In this document: positions 5,705 through 21,756 of the stretch, in pieces
Layout of the letters: each line of letters begins with the position of its first letter
How positions within the stretch are numbered: position 1 is the first letter of the stretch
Source of the DNA: a virus
Reading direction: 5' to 3' (one strand)
DNA: 27,105 bases
IMG/VR virus record: IMGVR_UViG_3300046327_000091
Span: 1 to 27,105 of that record
Notes under the pieces: generated by a model
Databases searched by the model: none
Told to the model about the DNA's origin: nothing
What the model saw: only the letters and a program-made list of their open reading frames with translations
Program-made: the position numbers and the translations under genes

Positions 5705-6219
5705 TGTACTACCCTAAATCAGAAATATCATTAGTATCAAGTACCACAGGTACAGAACTTCTTGTAAAAAAAACTAAGAAGCCTTACACAGGGGATTATT
5801 ATGTAACTAATGATGGGAAGTTTTTTTCTGGCAAAGAATACACAATTACAACTCAAGAGTTAGTACCTATAATACAAAAAGCTATTCTACAAAATGAATC
5901 TATATCATACGGTTTTCACTATGCAATGCCGTCTGAAGATGATTATTCCAAAGGATCCTTTACCAGATACACAATAAAAAGAGTAAACAGTGGGTTTGAA
6001 ACCATATTGGAAGTAGATCAAGCAGAATACGAAAGGGCTGCCAAAGACCCACTATACTCAGCAGTAAAGTTTTTCTGGAAGATAACAGGTCCGTTATACA
6101 CAACCCCAGAAGGAATCCCAGGAATCGTAAACACCAATCAGAAAACTCTAGAAAATTTAGAGAAAACCATACCGGGTATATCAAATTATTTTACAAATTT
6201 GGCGCAGTACGCAAAATAA
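5704..6219 (+). CDS. Small structural protein of the tail module, function unknown
   Basis: A 171-residue soluble protein whose ATG overlaps the stop of the hub-like gene (TAATG), so it is likely co-translated with it. Residues ~26-48 read PYTGDYYVTNDGKFFSGKEYT, a 'YTG-x-Y-x-x-x-x-DGKxFxGxxxT' pattern that I recognise loosely from tail-module proteins of marine Bacteroidota phages but cannot name. No catalytic motif, signal peptide or transmembrane segment is visible. Being the last gene before a promoter-bearing gap and a change to replication genes, it probably closes the tail operon. A virion role is inferred from context only. Confidence 0.55.
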   Translation: MYYPKSEISLVSSTTGTELLVKKTKKPYTGDYYVTNDGKFFSGKEYTITTQELVPIIQKAILQNESISYGFHYAMPSEDDYSKGSFTRYTIKRVNSGFETILEVDQAEYERAAKDPLYSAVKFFWKITGPLYTTPEGIPGIVNTNQKTLENLEKTIPGISNYFTNLAQYAK

Positions 6220-6230
6220 CCCTATCTTTG
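6198..6230 (+). promoter_or_regulatory. Bacteroidota-type promoter for the 6247 gene
   Basis: TTTG at 6198-6201, a 21-base spacer and TATCTTTG at 6223-6230 fit the Bacteroidota housekeeping promoter (TTTG, N19-21, TAnnTTTG). Transcription would begin a few bases before the GTG at 6247, giving a very short leader. The -7 element lies inside an imperfect inverted repeat, ATAACC (6216-6221) against GGTTAT (6237-6242), with TTTGTACAAA in between, which might act as an operator. Confidence 0.65.
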
Positions 6231-6246
6231 TACAAAGGTTATAAAC

Positions 6247-7584
6247 GTGTATTACATAATAGAGACTGAAGAACAGCTTCAGAAGTTTTCTGCATACGAC
6301 TTCACCAATTGTATTGTTGATGTAATTCCATCAAACGATAACTGCCATCCTAAACTGGCAGACATCTCTCTGATCTATATAAAGCCTTTTAGATCCCGTA
6401 TGGGGTTTATGCTATGTCTTGATCATACAGAAGCCTTTTCCCTCCCTAAAGAAGCTGTAGAGGCCTTTATAATCAATAAGCTTGGCAATATCTACGCTAT
6501 CGATGGAAAGAGGATGAGGTATTTCACTAAAAGAGATAGCGCCTTATATTGCCTTAAAATGGCCAAGTATTTATCTACTGGAGAGATCATAGACGAGTCT
6601 AAGTTCAATACCACAGCACACAACTTCTTTTGTCAGAAGTATGAATACCGTCCTGACATAAATAAAATAATCCCAATAGCTAAACATTTTGAAAAGTATG
6701 AGAAACTAGCTGCTTCTATCAAGATAGATCAGGCCTGGTTCAAAACCAAATACTACAAACTGTATGGAGAGGTAGCTCCTAAAATATTTAATTCTATCGA
6801 ATCTAATGGAATTAGCATAGATAATGTAGGATTTTTCAGTCATTATACCCCAAAAGAGGCCTTAATGTCGGTTAAATCAGACAAAACATATACTCAATAC
6901 AACCTGTATACCACTACTGGCAGGCCTTCAAATGCCTTCAATGGTATCAATTATGGGGCCATGAATAAGACAGATGGCAGCAGGAAGTCTTTCATAGCCG
7001 GTAAAGACAGATTGGTTGAGTTTGATTACAGTTCGTATCACATTCGTATATTAGCGTATCATATCGGATATATTTTTGACGATGAGGATATTCATACTCA
7101 CTTAGCCAAGTACTATTTTGATAGTAAAGACATTACTAAGGAACAGTATGAAGAGAGTAAAGGATTGACTTTTAAGCTGCTGTATACAGATTCTATTGCT
7201 GAAGAGGTAAAAGATATACCATTTTTTGCAAAAGTCAAGCAATTTAAAGAATCATTATGGAATTTATATAGAAAACAAGGATATATTGAAAGTTTTCTAT
7301 CTAAAAGACCTATTAGAGGAATAACTTCTAAAACACAAGTACTGCCATTTATTTTACAAAACTATGAAACTGAGAGAAATATCTTTGTTCTTAATGAACT
7401 TATTGCCTATCTTTGTAATAAGAACACAAAATTAGTGTTGTATAACTACGATTCTTTCTTATTTGACTATAGTAAATTGGACGGAAAGCAGACGCTTTGT
7501 GACATACAGATGATTTTGGAACAAGACGGATACAAAACATCTTGTAAATACGGCCAGAACTATCAGGAAATGAAGAATTTATAA
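6247..7584 (+). CDS. Divergent stand-alone family A (Pol I-like) DNA polymerase
   Basis: A 445-residue protein with a GTG start. The C-terminal half carries family A palm and fingers motifs in order: TTTGRPSN at 222-229; motif A VEFDYSSYHIRILAYH with Asp260, Tyr261 and Arg267; DIHTHLAKYYF at 281-291, like T7 polymerase 'GDIHT'; a motif B-like SKGLTFKLLYTD with Lys305, Phe309 and Tyr313, but Thr in place of the usual Gly and Tyr301 where an Arg normally sits; and motif C LVLYNYDSFLF, with Asp402 kept but the usual His replaced by Tyr. Both metal-binding Asp residues are present, so activity is possible. Residues 1-150 look like a decayed 3'-5' exonuclease domain without the DEDD acids. The phage has a complete Pol I at 16251, so this is a second, probably specialised enzyme (repair, gap filling or priming are all guesses). 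It has its own promoter. Confidence 0.8.
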   Translation: MYYIIETEEQLQKFSAYDFTNCIVDVIPSNDNCHPKLADISLIYIKPFRSRMGFMLCLDHTEAFSLPKEAVEAFIINKLGNIYAIDGKRMRYFTKRDSALYCLKMAKYLSTGEIIDESKFNTTAHNFFCQKYEYRPDINKIIPIAKHFEKYEKLAASIKIDQAWFKTKYYKLYGEVAPKIFNSIESNGISIDNVGFFSHYTPKEALMSVKSDKTYTQYNLYTTTGRPSNAFNGINYGAMNKTDGSRKSFIAGKDRLVEFDYSSYHIRILAYHIGYIFDDEDIHTHLAKYYFDSKDITKEQYEESKGLTFKLLYTDSIAEEVKDIPFFAKVKQFKESLWNLYRKQGYIESFLSKRPIRGITSKTQVLPFILQNYETERNIFVLNELIAYLCNKNTKLVLYNYDSFLFDYSKLDGKQTLCDIQMILEQDGYKTSCKYGQNYQEMKNL

Positions 7585-7595
7585 ATTTTTAGCAC

Positions 7596-7627
7596 AATTA
7601 TTAGATATTTATATATGAATAATAATT
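7596..7627 (+). repeat. Inverted repeat around the start codon of the 7615 gene
   Basis: AATTATTA (7596-7603) and TAATAATT (7620-7627) are perfect 8-base inverted arms with a 16-base loop that holds ATATTTAT (7605-7612) and the ATG at 7615. In RNA the start codon would lie in the loop. All bases are A or T, so chance is a real alternative. Confidence 0.4.
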
Positions 7628-8049
7628 TTTTTGATTTAACTTACGATTACTTGAACAAGCTTTTTTGCACGTTTACCAAAAAGGAAGACCTTCAGGTCAC
7701 CATATCGGATATAAAATCCAGGTATGAAGTAATCTATTCTAAGATATTCATATTAGAGACAGATAACGACAACGAATACGTGTGCACATACAACATTGAT
7801 AGCGATAACATCAACAAAAACAATGTTCTCCCTAATACAATTCTTATGCATCGCCGTAAAGAATGCAATGTTCTTTACACTATAAACTCCCTAAACAAGC
7901 TTATCGAGTCACTTAATGGTGGTGTTAGGGATAACAGCTATAAGGTTAACTGGAAAGACTATGAGAATAGCATACTGCTTACTCAGAAGGACCAGTTCGT
8001 ACAACTTAAGACCAGGATCCACGATATAGTTAATGTGGATAAAAAATAA
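7615..8049 (+). CDS. Hypothetical protein
   Basis: A 144-residue soluble protein that I do not recognise. It opens with an aromatic-rich helix (FFDLTYDYLNKLFCTF) and continues as mixed alpha/beta without clear catalytic motifs, cysteine clusters or membrane segments. The ATG lies within an AT-rich inverted repeat and directly follows an ATATTTAT motif. The gene stands between the divergent polymerase and the SSB operon, which has its own promoter downstream, so it is either the second gene of the polymerase transcript (31-base gap) or separately expressed. Codon use is more C/T-ending than in the tail genes and resembles the replication genes. A DNA-related role is only suggested by position. 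Confidence 0.6.
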   Translation: MNNNFFDLTYDYLNKLFCTFTKKEDLQVTISDIKSRYEVIYSKIFILETDNDNEYVCTYNIDSDNINKNNVLPNTILMHRRKECNVLYTINSLNKLIESLNGGVRDNSYKVNWKDYENSILLTQKDQFVQLKTRIHDIVNVDKK

Positions 8050-8106: not shown

Positions 8107-8979
8107 ATGTCCAAGATTGATTTGATCAAAGAAAGACTGAATAAGCTACAGTCTAAAAACTCAGGCTCCGCATTCGAAAAGATCGACTTCACAACCATTT
8201 TCTGGAAACCAAAGTTGGGAAAACAAGTAGTCAGGATCCTCCCCAGGAAAACCAACAAAGACTTCCCATTTGCAGAAGTTAGCTTCCATCAGTACAACAT
8301 CTTCAAAAAGAACGTTTACAGTCTTGAAAACTTCGGTGAGAAAGATCCTGTAGTTCAATTGATGCGTGAACTCTATGATGAGAACACAGAGGAAAGCAAA
8401 GATTTGGCTCGTAAGCTTAGGCCTCGCACTAAATTCTTCGCACAAGTATTGGTTCGTGGAGAAGAAGGTATGGGTGCTAGACTTTGGGAGTTTAACAAAA
8501 CTACCTACGAGAAGTTGCTTAGCATTATGGCCGATGATGATTTCGGTGATGTATCAGATGTAACAGAAGGTACTGACCTTACTGTAGAAGGCTACAACGA
8601 TGTGATCAAGATTGGTAAGCGTGATGTCAACTACGTTGCAGTTAACGTAACTCCAAAGAGAAACATCTCTGCTATCTCTGAAGATGCTGCTCTGGTACAG
8701 AAAGTATTGGAAACTCAAAAAGAGATTACTGAAATCTACAAGAAGTATTCTTACGATGAAATTAAGAAAATGCTTCACGATTACATTAATCCACAAGAAG
8801 CGCAGTCTGAAGAAGTATCAACTCCTACAGTAGAAGCAGCAGCTCCGGTTGCAGCAAAGGATGACGAAGACACTCCTCCCTTCGATGGTCCATACAAAAC
8901 AGTAGCACCTGCAGCAACAGCTCCAAAACCTAGCTCAGTAGCATCTAAGTTTGACGATCTATTTGGAGAAGACAATTAA
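8107..8979 (+). CDS. Single-stranded DNA-binding protein, gp32-like
   Basis: A 290-residue protein that would coat single-stranded DNA in replication and recombination. The N-terminus (MSKIDLIKERLNKLQSK) resembles the basic cooperativity arm of T4 gp32. The core opens with WKPKLGKQVVRILPRK and continues through FHQYNIFKKNVY and RTKFFAQVLV, a gp32-type OB-fold pattern. After residue ~210 comes an Ala/Pro/Glu-rich linker, then a short acidic tip KFDDLFGEDN, the usual protein-recruiting tail. The protein has no cysteine, so it lacks the zinc finger of T4 gp32. It is first in an operon with uvsX, the 5' nuclease and the helicase, preceded by a good promoter and an AAGTTATG start context. Its codon use favours C-ending codons, as expected for high expression. 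Confidence 0.85.
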   Translation: MSKIDLIKERLNKLQSKNSGSAFEKIDFTTIFWKPKLGKQVVRILPRKTNKDFPFAEVSFHQYNIFKKNVYSLENFGEKDPVVQLMRELYDENTEESKDLARKLRPRTKFFAQVLVRGEEGMGARLWEFNKTTYEKLLSIMADDDFGDVSDVTEGTDLTVEGYNDVIKIGKRDVNYVAVNVTPKRNISAISEDAALVQKVLETQKEITEIYKKYSYDEIKKMLHDYINPQEAQSEEVSTPTVEAAAPVAAKDDEDTPPFDGPYKTVAPAATAPKPSSVASKFDDLFGEDN

Positions 8980-8989
8980 AAACTAACAT

Positions 8990-10063
8990 ATGGCAGAATC
9001 AAAGAACATTAAAGGTGCTGTAGCCAGCGCCTTAGGTAAGAGTGCGTCTTTTAACTTAGAAAGCTTTAAGAAATCAAAGAATCTAACTGAAGGCGTATCA
9101 TTTAAGAAGCAGGAGTGGATTCCACTTTCAGAAGCATTCCAAGAAGCAATCAGCTTACCAGGAATTCCACACGGTCATGTGATCACATTCAGAGGCCACA
9201 GTGATACTGGAAAGACTACAGCAATGATTGAAGCAGCGATGAATGTGCAGAAGATGGGTAAGCTACCAGTCTTTATCATAACTGAGATGAAATGGGATTG
9301 GCATCATGCTAAGATCATGGGATTTGAAGTAAATGAAACAGTGAATAAAGAAACTGGTGAGATTTCTTACGGAGGTAACTTTATCTACGTGGATAGGGAT
9401 CATCTCTCTACTATTGAAGATGTTGCCGGATTTATCATGGATCTTTTAGATGAGCAAGAGAAGGGTAATCTCCCACTAGACATTGTATTCCTTTGGGACT
9501 CTGTAGGATCCATCCCATGTAAAATGTCTGTTGAATCTAACAAGAACAACAACGAATGGAATGCAGGAGCAATGTCTGTTCAGTTTGGTAACTTTGTAAA
9601 CCAAAGAATCGTAAGATCAAGGAAAGAAAGCTCCCAGTATACCAACACTCTTATTATAGTAAATAAGGTATGGGTAGAAAAGCCTTCTGTTTATGGAGAA
9701 CTTCCTAAGTTGAAAAACAAAGGAGGGAACACAATGTTCTTAGACTCTACACTTGTGGTAACCTTTGGTAATGCTACCGGAGCAGGTACTAACAAGATCA
9801 AAGCAACCAAGAATGGTAAGGATGTTGAGTTTGCTAAGAGGACTAAGATCTCTGTAGATAAGAATCATATCACCGGAGTTACTACTACTGGAAAGATTAT
9901 TGCCACTCCCCATGGATTCATTATTGATGACAAGAAGTACATTGACGCATACAAGAAAGCACACTCAGCAGAGTGGTTGAAGATTCTTGGAAGTGAAGAT
10001 TACGATGTAATCGAAGAAGAAGACAACGGAAGTGTAGTGGATAATAATTCCGGAGATGAATAA
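8990..10063 (+). CDS. uvsX: UvsX/RecA-family recombinase
   Basis: A 357-residue ATP-dependent strand-exchange protein of the RecA/UvsX family, acting on SSB-coated DNA. The Walker A loop is GHSDTGKTT (residues 69-77, Lys75) and Walker B is LDIVFLWDS (163-171, Asp170). The catalytic Glu region is ITEMKWDW (97-104) and the C-terminus ends in an acidic tail (EEEDNGSVVDNNSGDE). RecA-type DNA-binding loop regions follow Walker B around the asparagine-rich NKNNNEWNAGAMSVQF stretch. It begins 10 bases after the SSB stop and overlaps the next gene by 8 bases. Size and pairing with a gp32-like SSB favour a UvsX role over a bacterial RecA. A UvsY-like mediator was not found in this window. Confidence 0.88.
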   Translation: MAESKNIKGAVASALGKSASFNLESFKKSKNLTEGVSFKKQEWIPLSEAFQEAISLPGIPHGHVITFRGHSDTGKTTAMIEAAMNVQKMGKLPVFIITEMKWDWHHAKIMGFEVNETVNKETGEISYGGNFIYVDRDHLSTIEDVAGFIMDLLDEQEKGNLPLDIVFLWDSVGSIPCKMSVESNKNNNEWNAGAMSVQFGNFVNQRIVRSRKESSQYTNTLIIVNKVWVEKPSVYGELPKLKNKGGNTMFLDSTLVVTFGNATGAGTNKIKATKNGKDVEFAKRTKISVDKNHITGVTTTGKIIATPHGFIIDDKKYIDAYKKAHSAEWLKILGSEDYDVIEEEDNGSVVDNNSGDE

Positions 10064-11093
10064 GGATAGACTCCTTGACATATTCTCTAGACTCAAAAAC
10101 GATGAGAAGCCTGTTAATCTACACTACAATAGTAAAGTGTTGATTATAGATGGAATGAATACATTCCTCAGAAGCTTCGCAGTAGTTAATCGAGTAAACC
10201 TAGCAGGTAATGACGTAGGTGGACTCATTGGATTTTTGAAATCACTTGGACATGCAATAAAACTGTTATCCCCGACTCGTGTAGTAATCGTCTTTGACGG
10301 TGAAGCCGGGTCGGGCAACAGGAAGTATCTCTACAGCCAATATAAAGGAAATAGAGATACCGGAAGGATTATGAACTATAAGTCCTTCCAGACAAAAGAT
10401 GCAGAAGATGATTCTAAATACAATCAGATAACCAGACTGATAGATTATCTACAGTTTTTACCTGTGTCTTTGTTATCTTTCGATAAGCTTGAGGCAGATG
10501 ATGTAATGGGGTATTTAGCAGGAAGGATCTACAAAGAGTATGACGATTCCCAAGTGTACCTAATGTCTTCAGACAATGACTTTATGCAGTTAGTAAATGA
10601 TAGAGTTAAAGTATACAGCCCAACTAAGAAAAAGATATATGGAGTTGAGAATGTGGTAGAAGATTTTGGTATACACCCGGATAACTTCTTATTGTATAAA
10701 GCCCTCGTAGGAGACACATCAGACAATATACCTGGAGTAAATGGATTAGGTGAGAAGAATGTAGTGAAGCTTTTTGAGTTTGTATCAAAGCCAGAAAGAA
10801 AAACATTACAGGACGTTTATCAGGTATGTGAAAACCCTCCTAAGAAGTCAGCACTATATGAAAGAATATTGAATGTTCGTAAACAAGTAGAGATTTTCTA
10901 TAAAATTATGAACATCATGGAACCTAATATATCTGAAGATACGATTGTAGATATTATGGAAAAGTATCATACTAAAGCTCCGGCTTTAAAGAAGTATGAT
11001 TTCATGAAACTATACAATCATGATAAGATGGGGGATGCTATACCGCATTTAGATCTATGGATAAATTTATATTCCACATTGAACAATTATTAA
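10056..11093 (+). CDS. 5'-3' exonuclease / flap nuclease (FEN, T4 RNase H type)
   Basis: A 345-residue structure-specific 5' nuclease for removing RNA primers and flaps from lagging-strand fragments. The metal-binding acids appear in order: LIIDGMN (Asp32), VIVFDGEAG (Asp81), LEADDVMGYLA (Glu146, Asp148, Asp149), MSSDNDFMQLV (Asp173, Asp175) and GDTSDN (Asp220, Asp223). The helix-hairpin-helix IPGVNGLGEKNVVKLF follows at ~225-240. The conserved Arg/Lys arch is in the YKGNR region (96-100). The main Pol I at 16251 lacks this domain, so the two genes split functions that cellular Pol I joins. It overlaps the uvsX 3' end by 8 bases, so translational coupling is likely. Confidence 0.87.
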   Translation: MNKDRLLDIFSRLKNDEKPVNLHYNSKVLIIDGMNTFLRSFAVVNRVNLAGNDVGGLIGFLKSLGHAIKLLSPTRVVIVFDGEAGSGNRKYLYSQYKGNRDTGRIMNYKSFQTKDAEDDSKYNQITRLIDYLQFLPVSLLSFDKLEADDVMGYLAGRIYKEYDDSQVYLMSSDNDFMQLVNDRVKVYSPTKKKIYGVENVVEDFGIHPDNFLLYKALVGDTSDNIPGVNGLGEKNVVKLFEFVSKPERKTLQDVYQVCENPPKKSALYERILNVRKQVEIFYKIMNIMEPNISEDTIVDIMEKYHTKAPALKKYDFMKLYNHDKMGDAIPHLDLWINLYSTLNNY

Positions 11094-11100
11094 AAAAGTT

Positions 11101-12453
11101 ATGACGCAGCAAAGATTAACCAGTTATGGACATCAATTTCAAATAAAAGTTCTATACTCCTTACTAAACGACAAACAGTTCCTTCAAAACATAGCAGATG
11201 TAATCACAGCTGAATATTTTGAATCTCCTGCACACAAGTGGATCATAGGTACTATTCTTGATTATTATGGAAAGTACAATACTTTTCCTACTATGGAAGT
11301 TCTTAAAATAGAACTTAAGAAGGAAAAGAATGAGGTACTCCAAATATCAATCAAGGAAGAACTTAAGCAGGCTTATACAGCAACACAAGATGATATTGAC
11401 TATGTAAAAGAAGAGTTCTTTAATTTCTGTAAAAACCAGAAGTTAAAAGACGCATTACTATCATCAGTGGATCTGCTTACAAGCGGAGAGTTCGAAGGAA
11501 TCAGAAAGATTATTGATGAGGCATTGAGGGCAGGTGCTACAAAGGAGATAGGACACGAATACGATAAAGATATCGAGTCCAGGTTTAGAGAAGAAGAAGA
11601 TAAAAAGATTCCATTCCCATGGAAAGTATTTAACGATATTACAGATGGAGGAATAGGGGGAAGCAATCTTATGCTCCTATTTGCACCTCCTGGTATCGGT
11701 AAATCTACTGTGGTTTGTAATATTGCATCCCATTGTCTTAAGATGGGGTACAATGTAATCTATTACACTTTAGAGTTGGATGAAAGGTATGTAGGTAAAA
11801 AGATTGACTCTATTCTGACCGGAGTAGAAGTTAAGATGCTAAAGTTCCATCGTAAAGAAGTGGAAGCTGCTGTAAAGAATCTTAAAGGAAAGATTGTTAT
11901 CAAGGAGTATTCACCTGGTAGGGCTTCACTAAGCACCATAGAATCTCATATAAAACAACTACAATCCAATAATGACTTCATCCCAGATCTAATCATTATA
12001 GATTACCCAGATCTTTTAAAGCCTCGTAAATCTAGGAAAGAAAGCAAAGAAGAACTAGATGACATCTATACTGATCTAAAAGGAATGGCCAAAGACCTTA
12101 AGATACCTTTTGTATGTCCTTCCCAGATTAATCGTATGGGAGCCAAGGATGAGATCATCGAGGGTGATAAGGTAGCCGGAAGTTTCCAAAAGATGATGAT
12201 TGCCGATCTAAGCGTATCATTGTCTAGGCGTAGGAAGGATAAGATAAATGGTACCGGTAGGTTCCACATCATGAAATCCAGACTAGGCCCAGATGGACAA
12301 ACATATGCTGCCAAAATAGATCTGAACAAAGGATTTATTGATATATCAGAAGATCTTTATGAGGAAGAGTCTGATGGTGAGGACATTGGGTCCAAAGGAG
12401 ATTTTAGTTCAGACGATATGTCTTTGCTAAAGAAAAAGTTCCTTAAAGCATAA
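11101..12453 (+). CDS. Replicative DNA helicase, DnaB/gp41 type
   Basis: A 450-residue hexameric 5'-3' helicase of the DnaB family. An N-terminal helical domain (residues ~1-140) precedes a RecA-like motor: Walker A APPGIGKST (195-203, Lys201), the catalytic Glu in YYTLELDE (Glu225), Walker B DLIIIDYPDLL (Asp301) and the Gln sensor in CPSQINR (Gln342). KSRLGPDG near the C-terminus fits the arginine-finger and beta-hairpin region. The C-terminal ~45 residues are acidic, with a final KKKFLKA. It starts in AAGTTATG seven bases after the nuclease gene and ends the operon; a hairpin terminator lies 26 bases after its stop. No primase gene is visible in the window. Confidence 0.87.
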   Translation: MTQQRLTSYGHQFQIKVLYSLLNDKQFLQNIADVITAEYFESPAHKWIIGTILDYYGKYNTFPTMEVLKIELKKEKNEVLQISIKEELKQAYTATQDDIDYVKEEFFNFCKNQKLKDALLSSVDLLTSGEFEGIRKIIDEALRAGATKEIGHEYDKDIESRFREEEDKKIPFPWKVFNDITDGGIGGSNLMLLFAPPGIGKSTVVCNIASHCLKMGYNVIYYTLELDERYVGKKIDSILTGVEVKMLKFHRKEVEAAVKNLKGKIVIKEYSPGRASLSTIESHIKQLQSNNDFIPDLIIIDYPDLLKPRKSRKESKEELDDIYTDLKGMAKDLKIPFVCPSQINRMGAKDEIIEGDKVAGSFQKMMIADLSVSLSRRRKDKINGTGRFHIMKSRLGPDGQTYAAKIDLNKGFIDISEDLYEEESDGEDIGSKGDFSSDDMSLLKKKFLKA

Positions 12454-12479
12454 TCCCATAAGCATCAAAAAAGTAGCAA

Positions 12480-12508
12480 AAAAAAAGCTGAGCAAGTCAA
12501 CTTTTTTT
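12480..12508 (+). terminator. Intrinsic terminator after the helicase gene
   Basis: A run of A ending in G (12480-12487) pairs with C followed by seven T (12501-12508). Inside, TGA (12489-12491) pairs with TCA (12497-12499) around the loop GCAAG, with one C/A mismatch. The T tract is part of the stem and exits as the U run. Placement between two operons supports termination. Confidence 0.65.
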
Positions 12509-12561: not shown

Positions 12562-14415
12562 ATGGAATTAGGATCGGAGATACTAAGTCAGATAACTATT
12601 TTTTCTAAGTACGCCAAGTACATCCCTGAAGTAAAAAGAAGGGAAACATGGGAAGAAATAGTATCTAGATACGAGGTTATGTTAATGCAAAAGTTCCCAA
12701 ATCTAAAGAAAGAGATAATGGGAAACGCTAGTTATATTGTGGATAAGAAAGTACTCCCATCAATGAGAGCCCTACAGTTTTCAGGTATGGCCGCTGAAGT
12801 AAACAACGCACGCATCTACAACTGTTGCTATCTTCCAATGGATAGCGTACATTGTTTTTCAGAGTCTATGTTTCTTTTGCTTGGAGGTACTGGAGTAGGA
12901 TATTCCGTACAATCCCAACACGTAGAGAAGTTGCCAGAGATTATAAAGCCTGTAAAACAAAAAAGGTATTTAGTACAAGATAGTATTATTGGATGGGCTG
13001 ATGCTGTAAAGGTATTGATGAAATCCTATTTCGGTAAAGGAGCTAAGCCTACATTTGATTACAGAGATGTACGTCCTAAAGGATCTAGACTCATTACTGC
13101 AGGCGGTAAAGCCCCTGGACCAGAACCTCTTAAGATCTGTCTTACCCATATAGAAGCTATATTGGATCGTAAGCAAAATGGTGAGAAGCTGACTACCTTA
13201 GAAGTTCACGATATCATGTGTCATATTGCTAACAGCGTATTGTCCGGTGGTATTAGAAGGGCTGCTATGATTGCATTGTTTAGCCATGACGATGAAGAAA
13301 TGCTTACTTGTAAGTACGGTAATTGGTGGGAACTTAACGAACAAAGGGGAAGGTCAAACAACTCCGCAGTATTGGAAAGAGGCCAGATTACAGAAGAACA
13401 GTTCAAAGCTTTGTGGAAGAAGATTGAGTTGAGTAACTCTGGAGAGCCTGGGTTCTATTGGACAAAGAATGCTGAGTGGGGAACTAACCCGTGCTGTGAG
13501 ATAGCCCTGCGTCCATATCAATTCTGTAACCTGTGTGAGGTGAATGTATCTGATATCAAAGATGAACAAGATCTATTTGATAGAGTTCGTGTAGCTGCTT
13601 TCTTTGGAACTTTACAAGCTTCATTCACTGATTTTCATTATCTCCGTCCTATTTGGCAGAAGACTACTGAAAAGGATGCTTTGCTTGGAATAGGTATGAC
13701 AGGTATTGGAAGCGGTGAGATCATGAAGTATGATCTTGAAAAAGCTGCTGAGATTGCAAAAGAAGTAAATGCAGAGTACGCAGATTTGATTGGTATTAAC
13801 AGAGCCGCTCGCGTAACTTGTATAAAGCCTTCAGGAACAACATCTTGTGTATTGGGCACAGCTTCTGGAATACATGCATGGCATAACGATTACTATCTCA
13901 GAACAGTGAGGTTTAATAAGAGTGAGGACATTGCTAAGTATCTGATGGCAAACCATCCTGAAATGTGTGAGGACGATGTGTTGAGATCTCATGATACATT
14001 GTGTGCAAGGATTCCTATCAAAGCACCAGAAGGATCAATAATGAGAAGCGAAACTCCAATAGAGTTGTTGGAAAGGGTAAAGCATTTCTCAGTTAATTGG
14101 ATTAAGAGTGGTCATAGAAATGGATACAACACCCACAATGTATCAGCTACCGTATCTCTTAAAGAAGATGAATGGCTTCCAGTAGGAGAATGGATGTGGA
14201 AAAATAGGGAACATTATAACGGTTTGTCAGTATTACCTTATTGGGGAGGTACTTATCAACAAGCTCCTTTTGAAGATATTACTAAAGAGGAGTACGAAGA
14301 AAGAGTAAGCCGTCTTACTTCTATGGACTTGACTACTATTGTAGAAGAAGATGATACTGTAAACTTTGGGGCGATCGCAGCTTGCAGTGGTGCCAACTGT
14401 AGCGTAGAACAGTAA
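12562..14415 (+). CDS. Adenosylcobalamin-dependent (class II) ribonucleoside-triphosphate reductase
   Basis: A 617-residue monomeric class II ribonucleotide reductase of the Lactobacillus RTPR type, making dNTPs for phage DNA synthesis with coenzyme B12. The active-site pattern NPCCEI (Cys311, Glu313) and FCNL (Cys322) reproduces the Cys-x-Glu and +11 Cys spacing of RTPR (Cys408, Glu410, Cys419); the first redox cysteine is in YNCCYLP (Cys88/89). The C-terminus has CSGANC (Cys608, Cys613), the CX4C pair that accepts electrons from thioredoxin. KPSGTTS lies at ~422-428. It is shorter than the ~740 residues of the bacterial enzyme. No small radical subunit is encoded nearby, as expected for class II. 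It starts a new transcription unit after the terminator; the host must supply or import B12. Confidence 0.88.
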   Translation: MELGSEILSQITIFSKYAKYIPEVKRRETWEEIVSRYEVMLMQKFPNLKKEIMGNASYIVDKKVLPSMRALQFSGMAAEVNNARIYNCCYLPMDSVHCFSESMFLLLGGTGVGYSVQSQHVEKLPEIIKPVKQKRYLVQDSIIGWADAVKVLMKSYFGKGAKPTFDYRDVRPKGSRLITAGGKAPGPEPLKICLTHIEAILDRKQNGEKLTTLEVHDIMCHIANSVLSGGIRRAAMIALFSHDDEEMLTCKYGNWWELNEQRGRSNNSAVLERGQITEEQFKALWKKIELSNSGEPGFYWTKNAEWGTNPCCEIALRPYQFCNLCEVNVSDIKDEQDLFDRVRVAAFFGTLQASFTDFHYLRPIWQKTTEKDALLGIGMTGIGSGEIMKYDLEKAAEIAKEVNAEYADLIGINRAARVTCIKPSGTTSCVLGTASGIHAWHNDYYLRTVRFNKSEDIAKYLMANHPEMCEDDVLRSHDTLCARIPIKAPEGSIMRSETPIELLERVKHFSVNWIKSGHRNGYNTHNVSATVSLKEDEWLPVGEWMWKNREHYNGLSVLPYWGGTYQQAPFEDITKEEYEERVSRLTSMDLTTIVEEDDTVNFGAIAACSGANCSVEQ

Positions 14416-14424
14416 ATTTTTTAA

Positions 14425-14468
14425 ATAATGCATTTTCTGTATATTTATAAAGGAATAAAATGCATTAT
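14425..14468 (+). repeat. 12-base inverted repeat with the HNH gene start codon in its right arm
   Basis: ATAATGCATTTT (14425-14436) and AAAATGCATTAT (14457-14468) are perfect inverted arms around a 20-base loop, CTGTATATTTATAAAGGAAT. The first two bases of the ATG at 14467 are paired in the right arm and the AAGG-like ribosome-binding sequence lies in the loop. A TATTTATA element also sits in the loop. In a transcript reading through from the RNR gene the hairpin could hide the start codon. Confidence 0.65.
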
Positions 14469-15039
14469 GAAGAAAAAAGTAGAAATTGGAAATAAATTTG
14501 GTAAACTTCTTGCAGTAGAAGAAATTAAGGAAAGAAGATCTGGTGGGATAAGGTACAAATGTCTTTGTGATTGTGGTAACAGTCACGAAGCATTTGCAAC
14601 CCACTTAAGACGACTATTAATAACTCACTGCGGTTGTGAAAGAAAAGTAGGATCTAAGCACCATCAGTGGGGAGGAGTAGGAGACATATCGGGAGATTTT
14701 TGGTATAGTCATATATTGAGAAGTGCTAATGGCTCTAAAGGTAACAGAAGAATTAAACAACTGACTGTAACAATGGAGGAGGCTTGGAAACTTTTTTTGG
14801 ATCAAAATAAAAAATGTGCTTTGTCTGGTATAGAGTTGACATTTCCTAAAAAACACAAAGATAAACAGTGGACAGCGTCATTAGATAGAATAGATAGCAG
14901 CAAAGATTACACACCAGAAAATGTACAATGGGTACACAAGCATATTAATATTATGAAAAATTCTTTTGATCAAAGTTATTTTTTAGAAATGTGTAAAAAT
15001 ATAAACCAATGGCACAACAATACAAAAAAAAACCAGTAA
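14467..15039 (+). CDS. Free-standing HNH homing endonuclease with an N-terminal zinc ribbon
   Basis: A 190-residue DNA endonuclease. I chose the ATG at 14467 over the in-frame ATG at 14428, because MKKKVEIGNKFGKLLAVEE begins a standard domain and the upstream stretch is an inverted repeat. Residues ~5-57 form a zinc-binding unit (YKCLCDCG with Cys32, 34, 36, and CGC with Cys55, 57), common at the front of phage homing enzymes. The HNH nuclease follows: CALSG (Cys117), ASLDRIDSS (137-145) and NVQWVHKHINIMKN (152-165). It sits between the RNR gene and a conserved small gene whose ATG lies 31 bases inside its 3' end, the arrangement expected of an inserted homing gene. Codon use is more A/T-ending than in the RNR gene, also consistent with mobility. 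Confidence 0.8.
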   Translation: MKKKVEIGNKFGKLLAVEEIKERRSGGIRYKCLCDCGNSHEAFATHLRRLLITHCGCERKVGSKHHQWGGVGDISGDFWYSHILRSANGSKGNRRIKQLTVTMEEAWKLFLDQNKKCALSGIELTFPKKHKDKQWTASLDRIDSSKDYTPENVQWVHKHINIMKNSFDQSYFLEMCKNINQWHNNTKKNQ

Positions 15040-16235: not shown

Positions 16236-16250
16236 TAAAAAATAAAGGTT

Positions 16251-18560
16251 ATGAGTGAGAAGCGGTACGTCACGGTGGAAACACCGGAGGCATTGAGGCA
16301 GATGGTAAAACATATTAGGGAGCATGACATTATTGCTTTCGATACAGAGACAACCAGCCTTAATGTCAGAAAGGGAAAAATAATAGGAATATCAGTATCA
16401 GGAGAAGTTGGAGTGGGATACTACATGCCAACCATGATATTAAAAGAAGGAGAATTAGTAGACGATACTATATACGGAGAAAGCTGCCACGATCTAGCAA
16501 AGAAAGTAATAACTCTCTTATGCAGTAAAAAACTAATAGGCCACAACTTATCTTTTGACTCTAGATTTGTAAAAGAGTTTTACGATATTGATATAGTACC
16601 AGCTATATACGCAGATACGATGTTACTAGTACACACAGTAGCAGAGGAAGGTGCAGGAGATGGCTTTGGTAGTTCTTTTGGTCTTAAAGACATTGCAAAG
16701 GCTATACAAGAACATATCGGCCTTGACATGGAGAAAGAGGCCAATGAAGAACAAGTAGAGCTTAAAGAGTCTATAAAAGCTAATGGTGGTACTACCACTA
16801 AAGAAAACTATGAGATCTGGAAAGCAGACCTGCCCATACTATCGAAGTATGCTTGTGCAGATACAGATCTTACCTTAAGAGTATACAACTACTATATAGA
16901 TAAACTAAAGTCAGAAGGGCTAGAAAAGTTCTTTTTTGAAGATGAGGTGATGCCGCTATACAAGGAAGTTACTATTCCTATGGAGAGCAACGGTATGAAG
17001 CTTGACATGGATCTTATAGTTCAATCTAGAGAAGAGATAGTAAAAGACCTTGAGGACTACAAAGTACTTGTAATCAAAACTCTTTTAAAAGATCCTAGAG
17101 TAAAAGAATGGGTTATAGACAAAGCATTAGAAAAATACCCTCCTACACATAAAGGAAGTTATGCACAGCAACTGATAACAGAATCAGGACATACTTTACC
17201 AAAGTCTGAGAAGACTGGTAAGTATACTATGAATGCTGCTACACTAAAGACTTTAGAAGACGGTCCTATTAAAGAGTTCTTAACAACTGGCAATATGGAT
17301 GTCCTTGATGCTGATCTGGCTGTAAAAGTCAGTATGAAGCTATGGAAAGAAAGCCAGGATGGAGACTTCTTCAATATTCAATCTAAAGACCACTTAGGCA
17401 GTATTGCATTCACAGCTTTAGGCATGGAACCTATATCCACTACTGATAAGGGTAAAGACAAGTTTGATGATGATTTCATTCAGTCTATTGCAGATAAACA
17501 CGAGTGGGCTAAGAATCTTCGCATTTATAATAAACTGCTAAAGATAAAGTCTACATACATGGATAGGTTCCTGGATAAACAGGAAGACGGCATGTACTAC
17601 TTTTACTACAAACAACACGCTACTGTATCAGGTAGGTATGGATCTGATGCACAACAATTACCAAGACCTAAAGAAGAAGGGGAAGAGGATCCAATTGTTC
17701 TTAAATATAACAACATGATCCGTGCGTTCTTTGTTTGCAAACCGGGAACAGTGTTCATAGATAATGACTACTCTTCTCTTGAACCTAGAGTGTTTGCACA
17801 CGTATCAGGGGATAACAATCTAAAGAAGATATTCAGCGATAATTTAGATTTTTATTCACACATAGCCATACAAACCGAGAAGTTGGAGGGAGTTAGTGCT
17901 AATCCAAAAGATTCTAACTTCCTTAAGAAAGTACAACCTAGTAAAAGGCAATCCGCAAAAGCTTATTCTCTGGGTATTGCATATGGTCTAAAGGCATACG
18001 CATTGTCCAAGACTTTGGACATAAGCGTAAAAGAAGCGGATAGGCTGGTGAAGGGGTATCTGGAAGGATTTCCGGAATTGGCTAAGTGGATGAAAGATAC
18101 TGAAGCATTTGTAAAAAAATATGGATACGTTAGGATTGAAACAGGTCGTATAAGGCACTTGCCTAAAATACCCTATCTGTATGAAAAATTCGGAGATAAA
18201 TTAACAGATTGGAAAACACAAAGGACATTGGAAGATACTCTAGGAAAAGAACTTGTGTTAAATATGGTTAGGGATTATAAAAATGGGATCAACAATAGTT
18301 TTAATGTAAAAATACAAGGACTGGCAGCATCAATAGTGAACCGTGCAGCTATTAGAATAAACCGGCTTTTTAAAGAGAAAGGCATAGACGGAAAGGTGGT
18401 GGCTAATATTCATGATCAGTTGGTGATAGAGGTGGGAGAAGATAAGGTAGAAGAAGCAAAATACATAGTACAGGATTGTATGGAGAATACTACTAAATTG
18501 AATGGAGTGGAGTTAATAGCGGTGCCCTCTATCGCAAAGAATCTCAAAGACGGCCATTAA
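16251..18560 (+). CDS. polA: DNA polymerase I-type replicase (3'-5' exonuclease plus polymerase)
   Basis: A 769-residue family A polymerase, the probable main replicase. The proofreading domain has FDTETTSL (Asp31, Glu33), GHNLSFDSRF (Asp103) and YACADTD (Tyr200, Asp204), the DEDDy set. The polymerase domain has VSGRYGSDAQQLP, motif A DNDYSSLEPR (Asp506), motif B KRQSAKAYSLGIAYG (Arg566, Lys570, Tyr578) and motif C NIHDQLVIEVG (His721, Asp722). There is no 5'-3' exonuclease domain; that activity is encoded at 10056. The residue aligned with E. coli Phe762 is Leu574, a variant reported as common in virioplankton polymerases. It starts in AAAGGTTATG after the MazG gene and is followed by an HNH gene. 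Confidence 0.92.
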   Translation: MSEKRYVTVETPEALRQMVKHIREHDIIAFDTETTSLNVRKGKIIGISVSGEVGVGYYMPTMILKEGELVDDTIYGESCHDLAKKVITLLCSKKLIGHNLSFDSRFVKEFYDIDIVPAIYADTMLLVHTVAEEGAGDGFGSSFGLKDIAKAIQEHIGLDMEKEANEEQVELKESIKANGGTTTKENYEIWKADLPILSKYACADTDLTLRVYNYYIDKLKSEGLEKFFFEDEVMPLYKEVTIPMESNGMKLDMDLIVQSREEIVKDLEDYKVLVIKTLLKDPRVKEWVIDKALEKYPPTHKGSYAQQLITESGHTLPKSEKTGKYTMNAATLKTLEDGPIKEFLTTGNMDVLDADLAVKVSMKLWKESQDGDFFNIQSKDHLGSIAFTALGMEPISTTDKGKDKFDDDFIQSIADKHEWAKNLRIYNKLLKIKSTYMDRFLDKQEDGMYYFYYKQHATVSGRYGSDAQQLPRPKEEGEEDPIVLKYNNMIRAFFVCKPGTVFIDNDYSSLEPRVFAHVSGDNNLKKIFSDNLDFYSHIAIQTEKLEGVSANPKDSNFLKKVQPSKRQSAKAYSLGIAYGLKAYALSKTLDISVKEADRLVKGYLEGFPELAKWMKDTEAFVKKYGYVRIETGRIRHLPKIPYLYEKFGDKLTDWKTQRTLEDTLGKELVLNMVRDYKNGINNSFNVKIQGLAASIVNRAAIRINRLFKEKGIDGKVVANIHDQLVIEVGEDKVEEAKYIVQDCMENTTKLNGVELIAVPSIAKNLKDGH

Positions 18561-18634: not shown

Positions 18635-19501
18635 ATGGATTATAGGAAACATTATGACTTATTAATCAAGAAGGCTAGAGGAAGGGATTGGAGATCGTTA
18701 CCATATTTTGAAAGGCATCATATAGTGCCTAGATCGGAAGGAGGTGGAAATGAAGACACTAATCTAATAAGACTCACTGCTAGAGAGCATTTTTTAGCTC
18801 ACTGGTTTTTATATAGAGAAAACCCAAGCATAAAAAGCAGAGTATTCTCTTTTTGGAGAATGTGTAATGGAAGAGGATCGACTCCTCCTGAACATTGGTT
18901 GACAATATCTTCAAGGTGCTATGAAGAAGCTAGAAAGGCACATTCTGAGGCTATATCGAAGGCATTAAAAGGCAAGAAGAAAAGCCCTGAACATGTTAAG
19001 AAAGTAGCTGATAAAGTACGAGGTTTAAAAAGAACAGAAGAACAGAAGGCCAAATTTAGAAAACCTCATAAGTATTCAGAAGAAGGTTTGTATAGAAAGA
19101 GAGCCTCTATGATAGGAAAGACTCCTCGTAATATAAGAAAGGTCGATATGTTAGATGTTGATACATATGATACTATAAGGTCGTTCAGTTCTATTAAAGA
19201 AGCTGCTAAATTTGTAAATTTGGTAGGATCTAATATACAAGTAGCAGCCAAAACAGGTTCTATATCAGGAGGACATAGATGGAAGTACTCAGAACAAGTG
19301 GACTATAAATCAAAAGAAAAGAAGACATTAGCAAAGAAGATAAAAGCATATAGAATAGAAAGCCCAGATCAAATAATAATATTTGATTCTATGAGAGAGG
19401 CGTTTGAATACACTGGAATAAGTAAAAGTGCTATACACACTAGATGTAATAGAAAAGACAATGAGTATAAAGGATGGTGTTTTGAATACGTAGAAAAATA
19501 A
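18635..19501 (+). CDS. Free-standing HNH homing endonuclease with NUMOD-type DNA-binding modules
   Basis: A 288-residue modular endonuclease. The N-terminal HNH domain reads FERHHIVPRSEGGGNEDTNL then LTAREHFLAHWFL (His28, His29, Asn43, His52, His56). Residues ~95-130 (SEAISKALKGKKKSPEHVKK, RGLKRTEEQKAKF) match the NUMOD3 helical DNA-binding motif. Two later segments look like NUMOD1 helix-turn-helix modules: DTIRSFSSIKEAAKFV with GGHRWKY, and IIIFDSMREAFEYTGISKSAI with GWCFEYV. It lies 75 bases after polA, so the likely homing target is the polA region of related phages, by analogy with other free-standing homing genes. Codons are A/T-ending (AGA, ATA), consistent with an insert. No intron is evident, since polA is intact. 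Confidence 0.85.
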   Translation: MDYRKHYDLLIKKARGRDWRSLPYFERHHIVPRSEGGGNEDTNLIRLTAREHFLAHWFLYRENPSIKSRVFSFWRMCNGRGSTPPEHWLTISSRCYEEARKAHSEAISKALKGKKKSPEHVKKVADKVRGLKRTEEQKAKFRKPHKYSEEGLYRKRASMIGKTPRNIRKVDMLDVDTYDTIRSFSSIKEAAKFVNLVGSNIQVAAKTGSISGGHRWKYSEQVDYKSKEKKTLAKKIKAYRIESPDQIIIFDSMREAFEYTGISKSAIHTRCNRKDNEYKGWCFEYVEK

Positions 19502-19556: not shown

Positions 19557-19853
19557 ATGAGTAAATTAATTGCATTACATGACAAAGTCATTCTAAAGAA
19601 GATTGACTCAGAAGACAAAACGGTAGGTGGTATTATTGTACCAGACATGGGAGCTGAAAAATCAAACTACTTTGAGGTAGTTAGCGCAGGTCTAGGTATG
19701 TACGATACTCAAAATGGTAAGTACTTTCCTATGCACGTAGAAGCAGGGGATACAGTTATTGTGCCAAAAGCAGTAGTAACACAAATCATTGTAGACGGTG
19801 ATGAGTACTATGTATGCCGTGAAGTAGAAATCCTTTCAATTATTAAAGATTAA
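19557..19853 (+). CDS. groES: Co-chaperonin GroES (gp31-like role)
   Basis: A 98-residue lid protein that would form a heptamer on GroEL. MSKLIALHDKVILKKI corresponds to the GroES opening strand. The mobile loop is ~17-34, with the GroEL-binding hydrophobic triplet in GGIIVPD (26-28). The roof and core strands follow (FEVVSAGLG, VEAGDTVIVPK, EYYVCREVEILSII). I chose the ATG at 19557 because the upstream in-frame TTG lies in the promoter. The length is normal for GroES and shorter than T4 gp31. The stop overlaps the next start (TAATG), so the groES, 83-residue gene and groEL chain is translationally coupled. Confidence 0.88.
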   Translation: MSKLIALHDKVILKKIDSEDKTVGGIIVPDMGAEKSNYFEVVSAGLGMYDTQNGKYFPMHVEAGDTVIVPKAVVTQIIVDGDEYYVCREVEILSIIKD

Positions 19854-20104
19854 TGGATATAGTATATTCTATAACACAATTTGTATGGGTTAAGAAAGAT
19901 AATTCTTTCTATGCCGATGCGGATAAATTGTATCCTGATGGAGATTACAAATGTACTTTTCCAAACGGTAGGAAGAAGTTTTACATTAAGAATCATAACA
20001 CAAAAGGATTTAGAAGATTCACATTAAATAAAGAATGTGATGCCATTTTACAGTTTATAAGTGAAGATGGTATATTATGTAACATACAAACAAAAACAAA
20101 ATGA
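19853..20104 (+). CDS. Unknown small protein encoded between groES and groEL
   Basis: An 83-residue soluble protein that I do not recognise. Its ATG overlaps the groES stop by one base and its own stop overlaps the groEL ATG (ATGA), so the three are probably translated as a coupled set. Visible pattern: a beta-rich fold with YPDGDYKCTFPNGRKKFYI and FRRFTLNKECDAILQFISEDG, two cysteines, and a basic middle followed by a neutral end. There are no catalytic or membrane signatures. Strict coupling suggests a stoichiometric partner or modulator of the chaperonin, but that is inference from position alone; it may simply be a passenger. Confidence 0.65.
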   Translation: MDIVYSITQFVWVKKDNSFYADADKLYPDGDYKCTFPNGRKKFYIKNHNTKGFRRFTLNKECDAILQFISEDGILCNIQTKTK

Positions 20105-21756
20105 TAAAGACAGAATTTGGAACAGACCTCAAAAAGAAACTCCTAGAGGGAGTAAACAAGATTAATGCAAGCGTATCCTCGACACTGGGACCTGCAGGTA
20201 GAAACGTAATCATTAGAGGTGCTGATGGTGCTATTAAGATCACAAAAGACGGTGTTACAGTAGCACAATCATTTACCAAGCTTGAAGATCCTATTGAGGA
20301 TATCGGAGCTCAAATGATTAAAAGCGTATCAGTAAGATCAGCAGATAAAGCTGGGGATGGTACAACAACTTCTACACTGCTTGCATCTGTAATGGTGAAC
20401 GAAGGTATTAAAGCTATTACACAGGGATCTAATGCAGTAGAAGTAAAGAAAGGTATTGACAAAGCTGTATCAGCAGTAGTGGCCGGTTTAAAATCAATCT
20501 CTAAGGATATCTCCTCAGAAGATCAGATTAAACAAGTAGCAACTATTTCTGCTAACAATGATACTGAGATTGGTACATTGATCGCAACTGCTTTGGATAA
20601 AGTAGGTACTGATGGTGTAGTAGCTATTGAAGAGTCAAAGTCTGGTGAGACTTCTTTGGAAGTCGTAGAAGGTATGATGTTTGACAGAGGTTTCAAATCT
20701 CCATACTTCGTTACAGACAACTCAACAATGCAGGCTATATTTGATAAGCCGTTGATCTTCTTGTATGATGGTAGACTTACTAGCACTGCACAGGTATTAC
20801 CTTTGTTGCAAGCAGCTCACGCAGAAAGTCTTCCTTTGCTTATCGTTGCTGAAGACATCGAGCATGAGGCATTGGCTATCTTGGTAGTTAACAAAGCAAA
20901 CGCCACTATTAAAGTATGTGCTGTTAAGGCTCCTGACTTTGGTGATCGTAGGACTGCTATCTTAGAAGATATCGCAATCCTTACTGGTGGTACTGTTGTA
21001 TCTCCTACTAAAGGCAATAAGATTGAAAAGATGAAGCCTGATGAGTTTAAGCCATTGTTCGGTAAGGCCCGTATGGTAAATGTATCATCTAAAGATACCA
21101 CTATCATTGATGGTAAAGGATCAGTAGAAGGTATTGAGCAGAGGTTGAATGATATTAAAAAACAAATCGAGATTGCTAAATCTAACTTTGAAATTGAAAA
21201 ACTCCAAGAGAGATTGTCAAAACTTACTGGTGGTGTTGCTATTATCAATGTTGGTGGTATGAGTGAGATTGAAATGAGAGAGAAGAAGGATCGTGTAGAC
21301 GATGCATTACACGCTACTAAAGCTGCCTTAGATCAAGGTATTGTTCCTGGAGGGGGTATGGCATTGATCAACTGTATAGACTTGCTTAAAGAAGCTGTAT
21401 TGGATTGTGATAACGATGATCAAGAACTCGGTGTACGTATTGTTACTAAGGCTTTGTATGCACCGTTTAAAACCATTCTTACCAATGCTGGTATTGAGAA
21501 TGCATATGAGATTCTAAGCAGTGTAAAAAACTATGCTGTTGATGAAGATGACAGCACATGGTATGGATATAATGCAAAGACCGGAGAGATTCAAAACTTC
21601 TTCACAGCAGGTATCTTAGATCCTACTAAAGTAACAAGGACGGCTATTGAGAATGCTGCCAGTGTAGCAGGAACTATTCTTACTACAGAATCAGTAGTGT
21701 ACTTTACAGGAGACGAGAAGAAAGATGATATCGATTATAGTCAATTCATGCAATAA
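20101..21756 (+). CDS. groEL: Chaperonin GroEL
   Basis: A 551-residue group I chaperonin, nearly the length of the bacterial protein. The nucleotide-binding signatures are present: [33 protein letters not shown] (85-96, Asp86) and [21 protein letters not shown], with Asp401 matching the catalytic E. coli Asp398. [20 protein letters not shown] closes the equatorial domain. The C-terminus ends [14 protein letters not shown] instead of the GGM repeats that line the cavity of many bacterial GroELs. Codons favour GGT, ATT/ATC and CGT, as in the SSB gene, suggesting strong expression. Having both GroEL and GroES would free virion assembly from host chaperonins. Confidence 0.93.

Follow-up and report, generated by a model that had tools for sequence, protein, structure and literature searches.

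Yutin et al. (2024; PMC11348598) named divPolA1 from 14 phages as an extra family A DNA polymerase (PolA). Their text describes a truncated thumb, an inactivated exonuclease and replication genes downstream, reports in these phages an additional regular polymerase, which may belong to family A, B, or C, and arrives at an accessory, exonuclease-dead polymerase. In the literature searched, the name occurs only in that paper and its preprint, and no demonstrated activity of divPolA1 was found. A second thumb-altered phage PolA without exonuclease, divPolA2 of the barbaviruses and relatives (AUR84708), differs from divPolA1 in keeping, as judged by eye, the Glu at D+5 and the R-xxx-K helix. We discarded kinship between the two, as hhalign detected no match between divPolA1 and AUR84708 (Prob 0.5%, E 0.11, a weak comparison against a single-sequence target). 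The closest described counterpart of the protein studied here is divPolA1 itself, for example gp001 of Flavobacterium phage immuto, a full-length homologue with a truncated thumb and replaced exonuclease acids. Both phages carry the second polymerase beside a regular one, with the same replication genes downstream of it and the regular polymerase near GroES/GroEL.

The window analyzed here is the whole stretch of 27,105 nucleotides of IMG/VR virus record IMGVR_UViG_3300046327_000091 (table 1). An initial annotation had read its ORF 6247-7584 as a divergent family A polymerase, second to a Pol I, had pointed to the Pfam DNA_pol_A profile and had staked its view on a polymerase palm in the predicted fold. 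The product does pass the gathering cut-off of that profile (PF00476; E 7.7e-9, 35.4 vs 34.3 bits), and its AlphaFold model (pLDDT 92.5, pTM 0.90) resembles Klenow most closely among PDB structures (1kfd; TM 0.78 by query length, E 3.9e-18), a result that does not refute the annotation's view. The ORF, a real family A homologue, is under purifying selection, with dN/dS of 0.02-0.09 against five relatives. A full Pol I with exonuclease and polymerase domains does lie in the same phage fragment; it retains the exonuclease acids and the main polymerase residues, including E710 and R754 (Klenow numbering), and is 55% identical to the immuto Pol I. Near it are GroES (19560-19850) and GroEL (20101-21753), which match those of immuto at 38% and 55%. 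The two polymerases of the window are too diverged from each other for BLASTP (best E 0.15).

Table 1. Features of the window that bear on divPolA1 and its neighbors
Feature	Position	Strand	Basis or remark
Bacteroidota-type promoter, TTTG-N21-TATCTTTG	6198..6230	+	Consensus match only
divPolA1 ORF, 445 aa, GTG start	6247..7584	+	PF00476, AF2 fold, hhalign, dN/dS
Parts of divPolA1, as predicted (residues)			Degenerate exonuclease domain ~1-155; truncated thumb ~190-210; palm/fingers ~211-445
Motif A, D260-Y-S-S-Y-H265	7024..7041	+	D705 (catalytic Asp) and E710 positions; ungapped profile alignment
Motif B helix, Y301-xxx-K305-xxx-F309-xxx-Y313	7147..7185	+	Positions R754, K758, F762, Y766
Motif C, Y401-D402-S403 ... 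D407	7447..7467	+	H881, D882, E883
Companion protein, 144 aa, no known family or fold	7615..8049	+	Constant divPolA1 neighbor
gp32-type single-strand DNA-binding protein	8107..8979	+	PF08804 E 4.4e-19
RecA/UvsX-like recombinase	8990..10063	+	PF00154 E 7.6e-8; immuto gp005 recombinase in same place
5'-3' exonuclease (flap/RNase H type)	10056..11093	+	PF02739 E 3.6e-30, PF01367
DnaB-type replicative helicase	11101..12453	+	PF03796 E 3.4e-20
Full Pol I, 769 aa, exonuclease + polymerase, presumed replicase	16251..18560	+	PF00476 E 9.4e-64, PF01612 E 1.1e-12

The immuto divPolA1 (MW353175-7) matches the window protein at 33% identity over 98% coverage (E 7e-70). In a tblastn search of 50,697 phage records, the four immuto records had full-length relatives, and Microcystis phage Mel-JY01 and an uncultured phage of 484 kb had partial matches to family members; the other matches listed were in Microbacterium phages and are annotated as ordinary Pol I. 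IMG/VR scans added at least 588 relatives, and a genome scan found six in metagenome-assembled genomes. Every checkable divPolA1 feature was found in the window protein, which on its sequence is therefore a member of this already known kind rather than of a new class; the membership list also includes a genome of 155-190 kb, and the window record has 27,105 bases.

Klenow and divPolA1 share the exonuclease-palm-fingers order as well as the fold, and a divPolA1 profile aligned to eight canonical PolA sequences with hhalign (Prob 99.6, E 1.6e-22) without a gap in motif A. About 84 Klenow thumb residues are unmatched in this profile alignment, by which the divPolA1 thumb is truncated. The N-terminal ~155 residues keep the strand and helix order of the exonuclease domain, and H34 and K88 are conserved there wherever aligned. 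Placement by eye and profile found neither Exo I nor Exo II to carry a conserved acid, and the mostly conserved E152 may occupy the position of the Exo III Asp. The annotation's exonuclease domain without catalytic acids is thus borne out by profile alignment and column inspection, and inactivity is the best reading of the domain.

The polymerase motifs named by the annotation (TTTGRPSN with R226, D260, K305/F309/Y313, and Y401-D402) fall at the same positions in the profile alignment and the fold. Structure and residue counts were based on alignments of 19, 64, and 61 members. Among 234 distinct divPolA1 sequences, corresponding to 161 at 90% nonredundancy with a median pairwise identity of 0.34 among the 90% representatives, R226, D260, H265, F309, Y313, E374, T375, D402, and D407 are invariant and Q371 is near-invariant. 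Y401 is present in 233 of the 234, as is K305, the one remaining sequence having an unreadable residue at the latter position. Klenow R668, D705, K758, F762, Y766, Q849, and D882 accordingly have their counterparts in divPolA1. Position 403 holds either Ser or Ala; at position 301 Tyr predominates, and Arg is absent among the residues listed. Profile alignment upheld Y301 in place of R754 and Y401 in place of H881. The loss of the Gly after Y313, also noted by the annotation, holds for the window protein but not for the family, 54 of 64 aligned relatives keeping Y-G; as aligned, the loss is confined to the window's own clade and sets it apart from immuto gp001.

The annotation's list of substitutions was correct as given but left out the one that says most, the replacement of the steric-gate Glu710 by His265. 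Glu at the E710 site and Arg at 754 are shared by all eight of the canonical enzymes compared, among them the Pol I of the window itself; divPolA1 lacks both, with His at the gate in 234/234 sequences. The Glu steric gate and the O-helix Arg are traits of canonical family A members and not of the fold family. In Pol I, E710 blocks ribonucleotides and helps to form a stable ternary complex (PMC9324360), and a change of the equivalent Taq residue, E615G, is among those in engineered variants that make RNA (PMC4215692). The invariant His suggests that divPolA1 sets its sugar selection differently from ordinary Pol I, possibly to the extent of tolerating ribonucleotides.

Carried further, this substitution would make divPolA1 a ribonucleotide-using polymerase that lays down short RNA or mixed RNA/DNA stretches. 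T7 RNA polymerase, also a single-subunit, family A-related enzyme, likewise lacks a Glu at the corresponding site (D537+5) and has H-D-S as motif C. Its gate residue, however, is Gly (G542) rather than His, it keeps R627 and H811, and its N-terminal part is not known to be an exonuclease relative. The His of divPolA1 is bulky and could itself serve as a gate, while F309 is the ordinary Pol I residue. We set aside an RNA-polymerase-like motif C as evidence, since Ser, Ala, or Gln is found there in ordinary phage Pol I enzymes too, the loss of E883 being nondistinctive (Q, A, and S occupy that site in canonical phage enzymes). Nor is a primase missing, since each of the nine tested records of at least 129 kb has a DnaG homologue, and we consider ribonucleotide synthesis as the role of divPolA1 distinctly improbable.

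The replacement of R754 and H881, both of which the canonical enzymes compared conserve, together with the part that E710 plays in the ternary complex, means that the activity of divPolA1 could be weak or altered. With the thumb truncated as well, the protein might even be a catalytically inert structural or regulatory paralogue. We regard this as very unlikely, as the equivalents of both metal-binding Asps, K758, Y766, and R668 vary little or not at all among sequences that are themselves very divergent.

Among the records surveyed, a full PolA accompanies divPolA1 in the window and 10 other virus records and a PolB in 23, the two never occurring together. The co-occurrence with a full Pol I that the annotation proposed to survey is therefore real in 11 records, but in 23 the partner is PolB instead. 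PolC (PF07733) was absent from 40 IMG/VR records; the record of 484 kb, which has a PolB too, gave one match. In that record (LR756508, which holds locus L004; 260623-266900 and 47415-48068), PolB matches fall in two open frames of 1022 and 625 aa, and a DNA polymerase III alpha match is also present. Mapped on the divPolA1 tree, replicase type switches three times, and supported branches force two or more of these switches.

Every tested record of 129 kb or more has a full replicase. With a separate PolA or PolB and with DnaG in 9/9 long records, divPolA1 serves these phages neither as main or sole replicase nor as a primase or its substitute, and we rejected these readings. It could still be a second replicase that shares the leading and lagging strands with the regular polymerase; its constant presence in the replication operon would fit, and Yutin et al. 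(PMC11348598) place the regular polymerases in less conserved company. A replicative share is nonetheless hard to reconcile with an enzyme that has no proofreading and almost no thumb beside a full replicase, and we think it highly improbable.

The ORF immediately downstream of divPolA1 (7615-8049) matches no Pfam family, no PHROG of assigned function, and no sequence in the PDB. Its AlphaFold model is fairly confident (pLDDT 87.6), and the fold has no match in the PDB below E 0.14. A homologue of this companion lies downstream of divPolA1 in each of the 100 loci that leave 500 bases or more of room, and divPolA1 lies upstream of the companion in 51/51 homologues with room and, in two distant clades, in a further 122/122 (173/173 in total); the loci share common descent and so do not count as independent cases, and the "best 80" relatives used favor near kin. 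Within the 50,697 phage records, the companion is confined to the six that also carry divPolA1. The two genes lie about 0.5-2.4 kb apart in the distant clades; a gene of ~360-410 aa was observed in between (11271-12500 in locus L016, 13001-14074 in L004).

This gene pairing suggests that the companion may bind divPolA1, and it is a ready candidate for a subunit with a fold unlike any in the PDB search. A bolder version, in which divPolA1 and the 144-aa protein form a dedicated two-subunit polymerase, the small protein with its new fold replacing the thumb and the His gate tolerating ribonucleotides, filling gaps or making mixed RNA/DNA patches whatever the replicase, seems to us quite unlikely.

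The annotation had also assigned divPolA1 a promoter of its own, for which there is support. The TTTG-N21-TATCTTTG consensus matches the window eight times against 1.08 expected (as many in 0/100 shuffles), the element upstream of divPolA1 is at the same place in two relative loci (L006 and L011), and TAnnTTTG precedes the start by 15-18 nt in 12/12 other loci from the window's clade. In most other clades examined, a Bacteroidota-type promoter was not evident upstream of divPolA1. A second element, AAAGGTTAT, occurs in the window at 6234, just before the divPolA1 start, at 16244, before the start of the full Pol I, and at a third site, 22048 (three against 0.64 expected; as many in 3/100 shuffles). 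It is possibly a shared expression signal. A similar AAAGGTT precedes divPolA1 in several other clades.

Downstream, the order of the operon is kept in most loci. Beyond it, the window has a single 617-aa ribonucleotide reductase with a weak match to a B12-dependent insertion domain (12562-14415), where immuto has a class I NrdA/NrdF pair. HNH/homing-endonuclease-like genes follow this reductase (14428-15039) and, directly, the full Pol I (18635-19501).

divPolA1 could also be a translesion or error-prone repair polymerase, in which missing proofreading, a small thumb, and altered dNTP contacts permit lesion bypass in the manner of Pol nu and Pol theta among family A or, by analogy, the Y-family enzymes. 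The loss of exonuclease and thumb and the accessory position beside PolA or PolB would suit such a role, and human Pol nu is among the top fold matches, though all family A enzymes score alike. The place of divPolA1 is, however, fixed in a replication and recombination operon and not among repair genes, and no lesion-bypass insert was identified. On balance we judge lesion bypass unlikely.

The fold, the unvarying catalytic Asps, purifying selection, and the presence of a separate family A or B replicase support the annotation's overall proposal of a nonproofreading, specialized polymerase or altered paralogue. The account we favor, and consider fairly probable, is an accessory DNA polymerase of family A, with its thumb truncated and its exonuclease dead, that fills gaps with the help of partners within a recombination and replication operon. 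Such an enzyme would be catalytically active and template-directed, and by itself probably distributive because it has almost no thumb; the companion, the gp32-type single-strand DNA-binding protein, or both would hold it on DNA. The operon company of single-strand DNA-binding protein, RecA-like recombinase, 5'-3' exonuclease, and DnaB helicase, which may act together with divPolA1, suggests the filling of short gaps in recombination-dependent or lagging-strand synthesis.

The text of Yutin et al. (PMC11348598) makes no mention of the steric gate, of ribonucleotides, or of the companion gene, and the His gate and the constant companion appear to be additions to it. The invariant exchange of E710 for His offers a natural experiment on the choice between deoxy- and ribonucleotides by family A enzymes. 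A stripped-down second polymerase, kept in hundreds of phage contigs while the replicase is exchanged, points to a replication step outside the T4 and T7 textbook systems.
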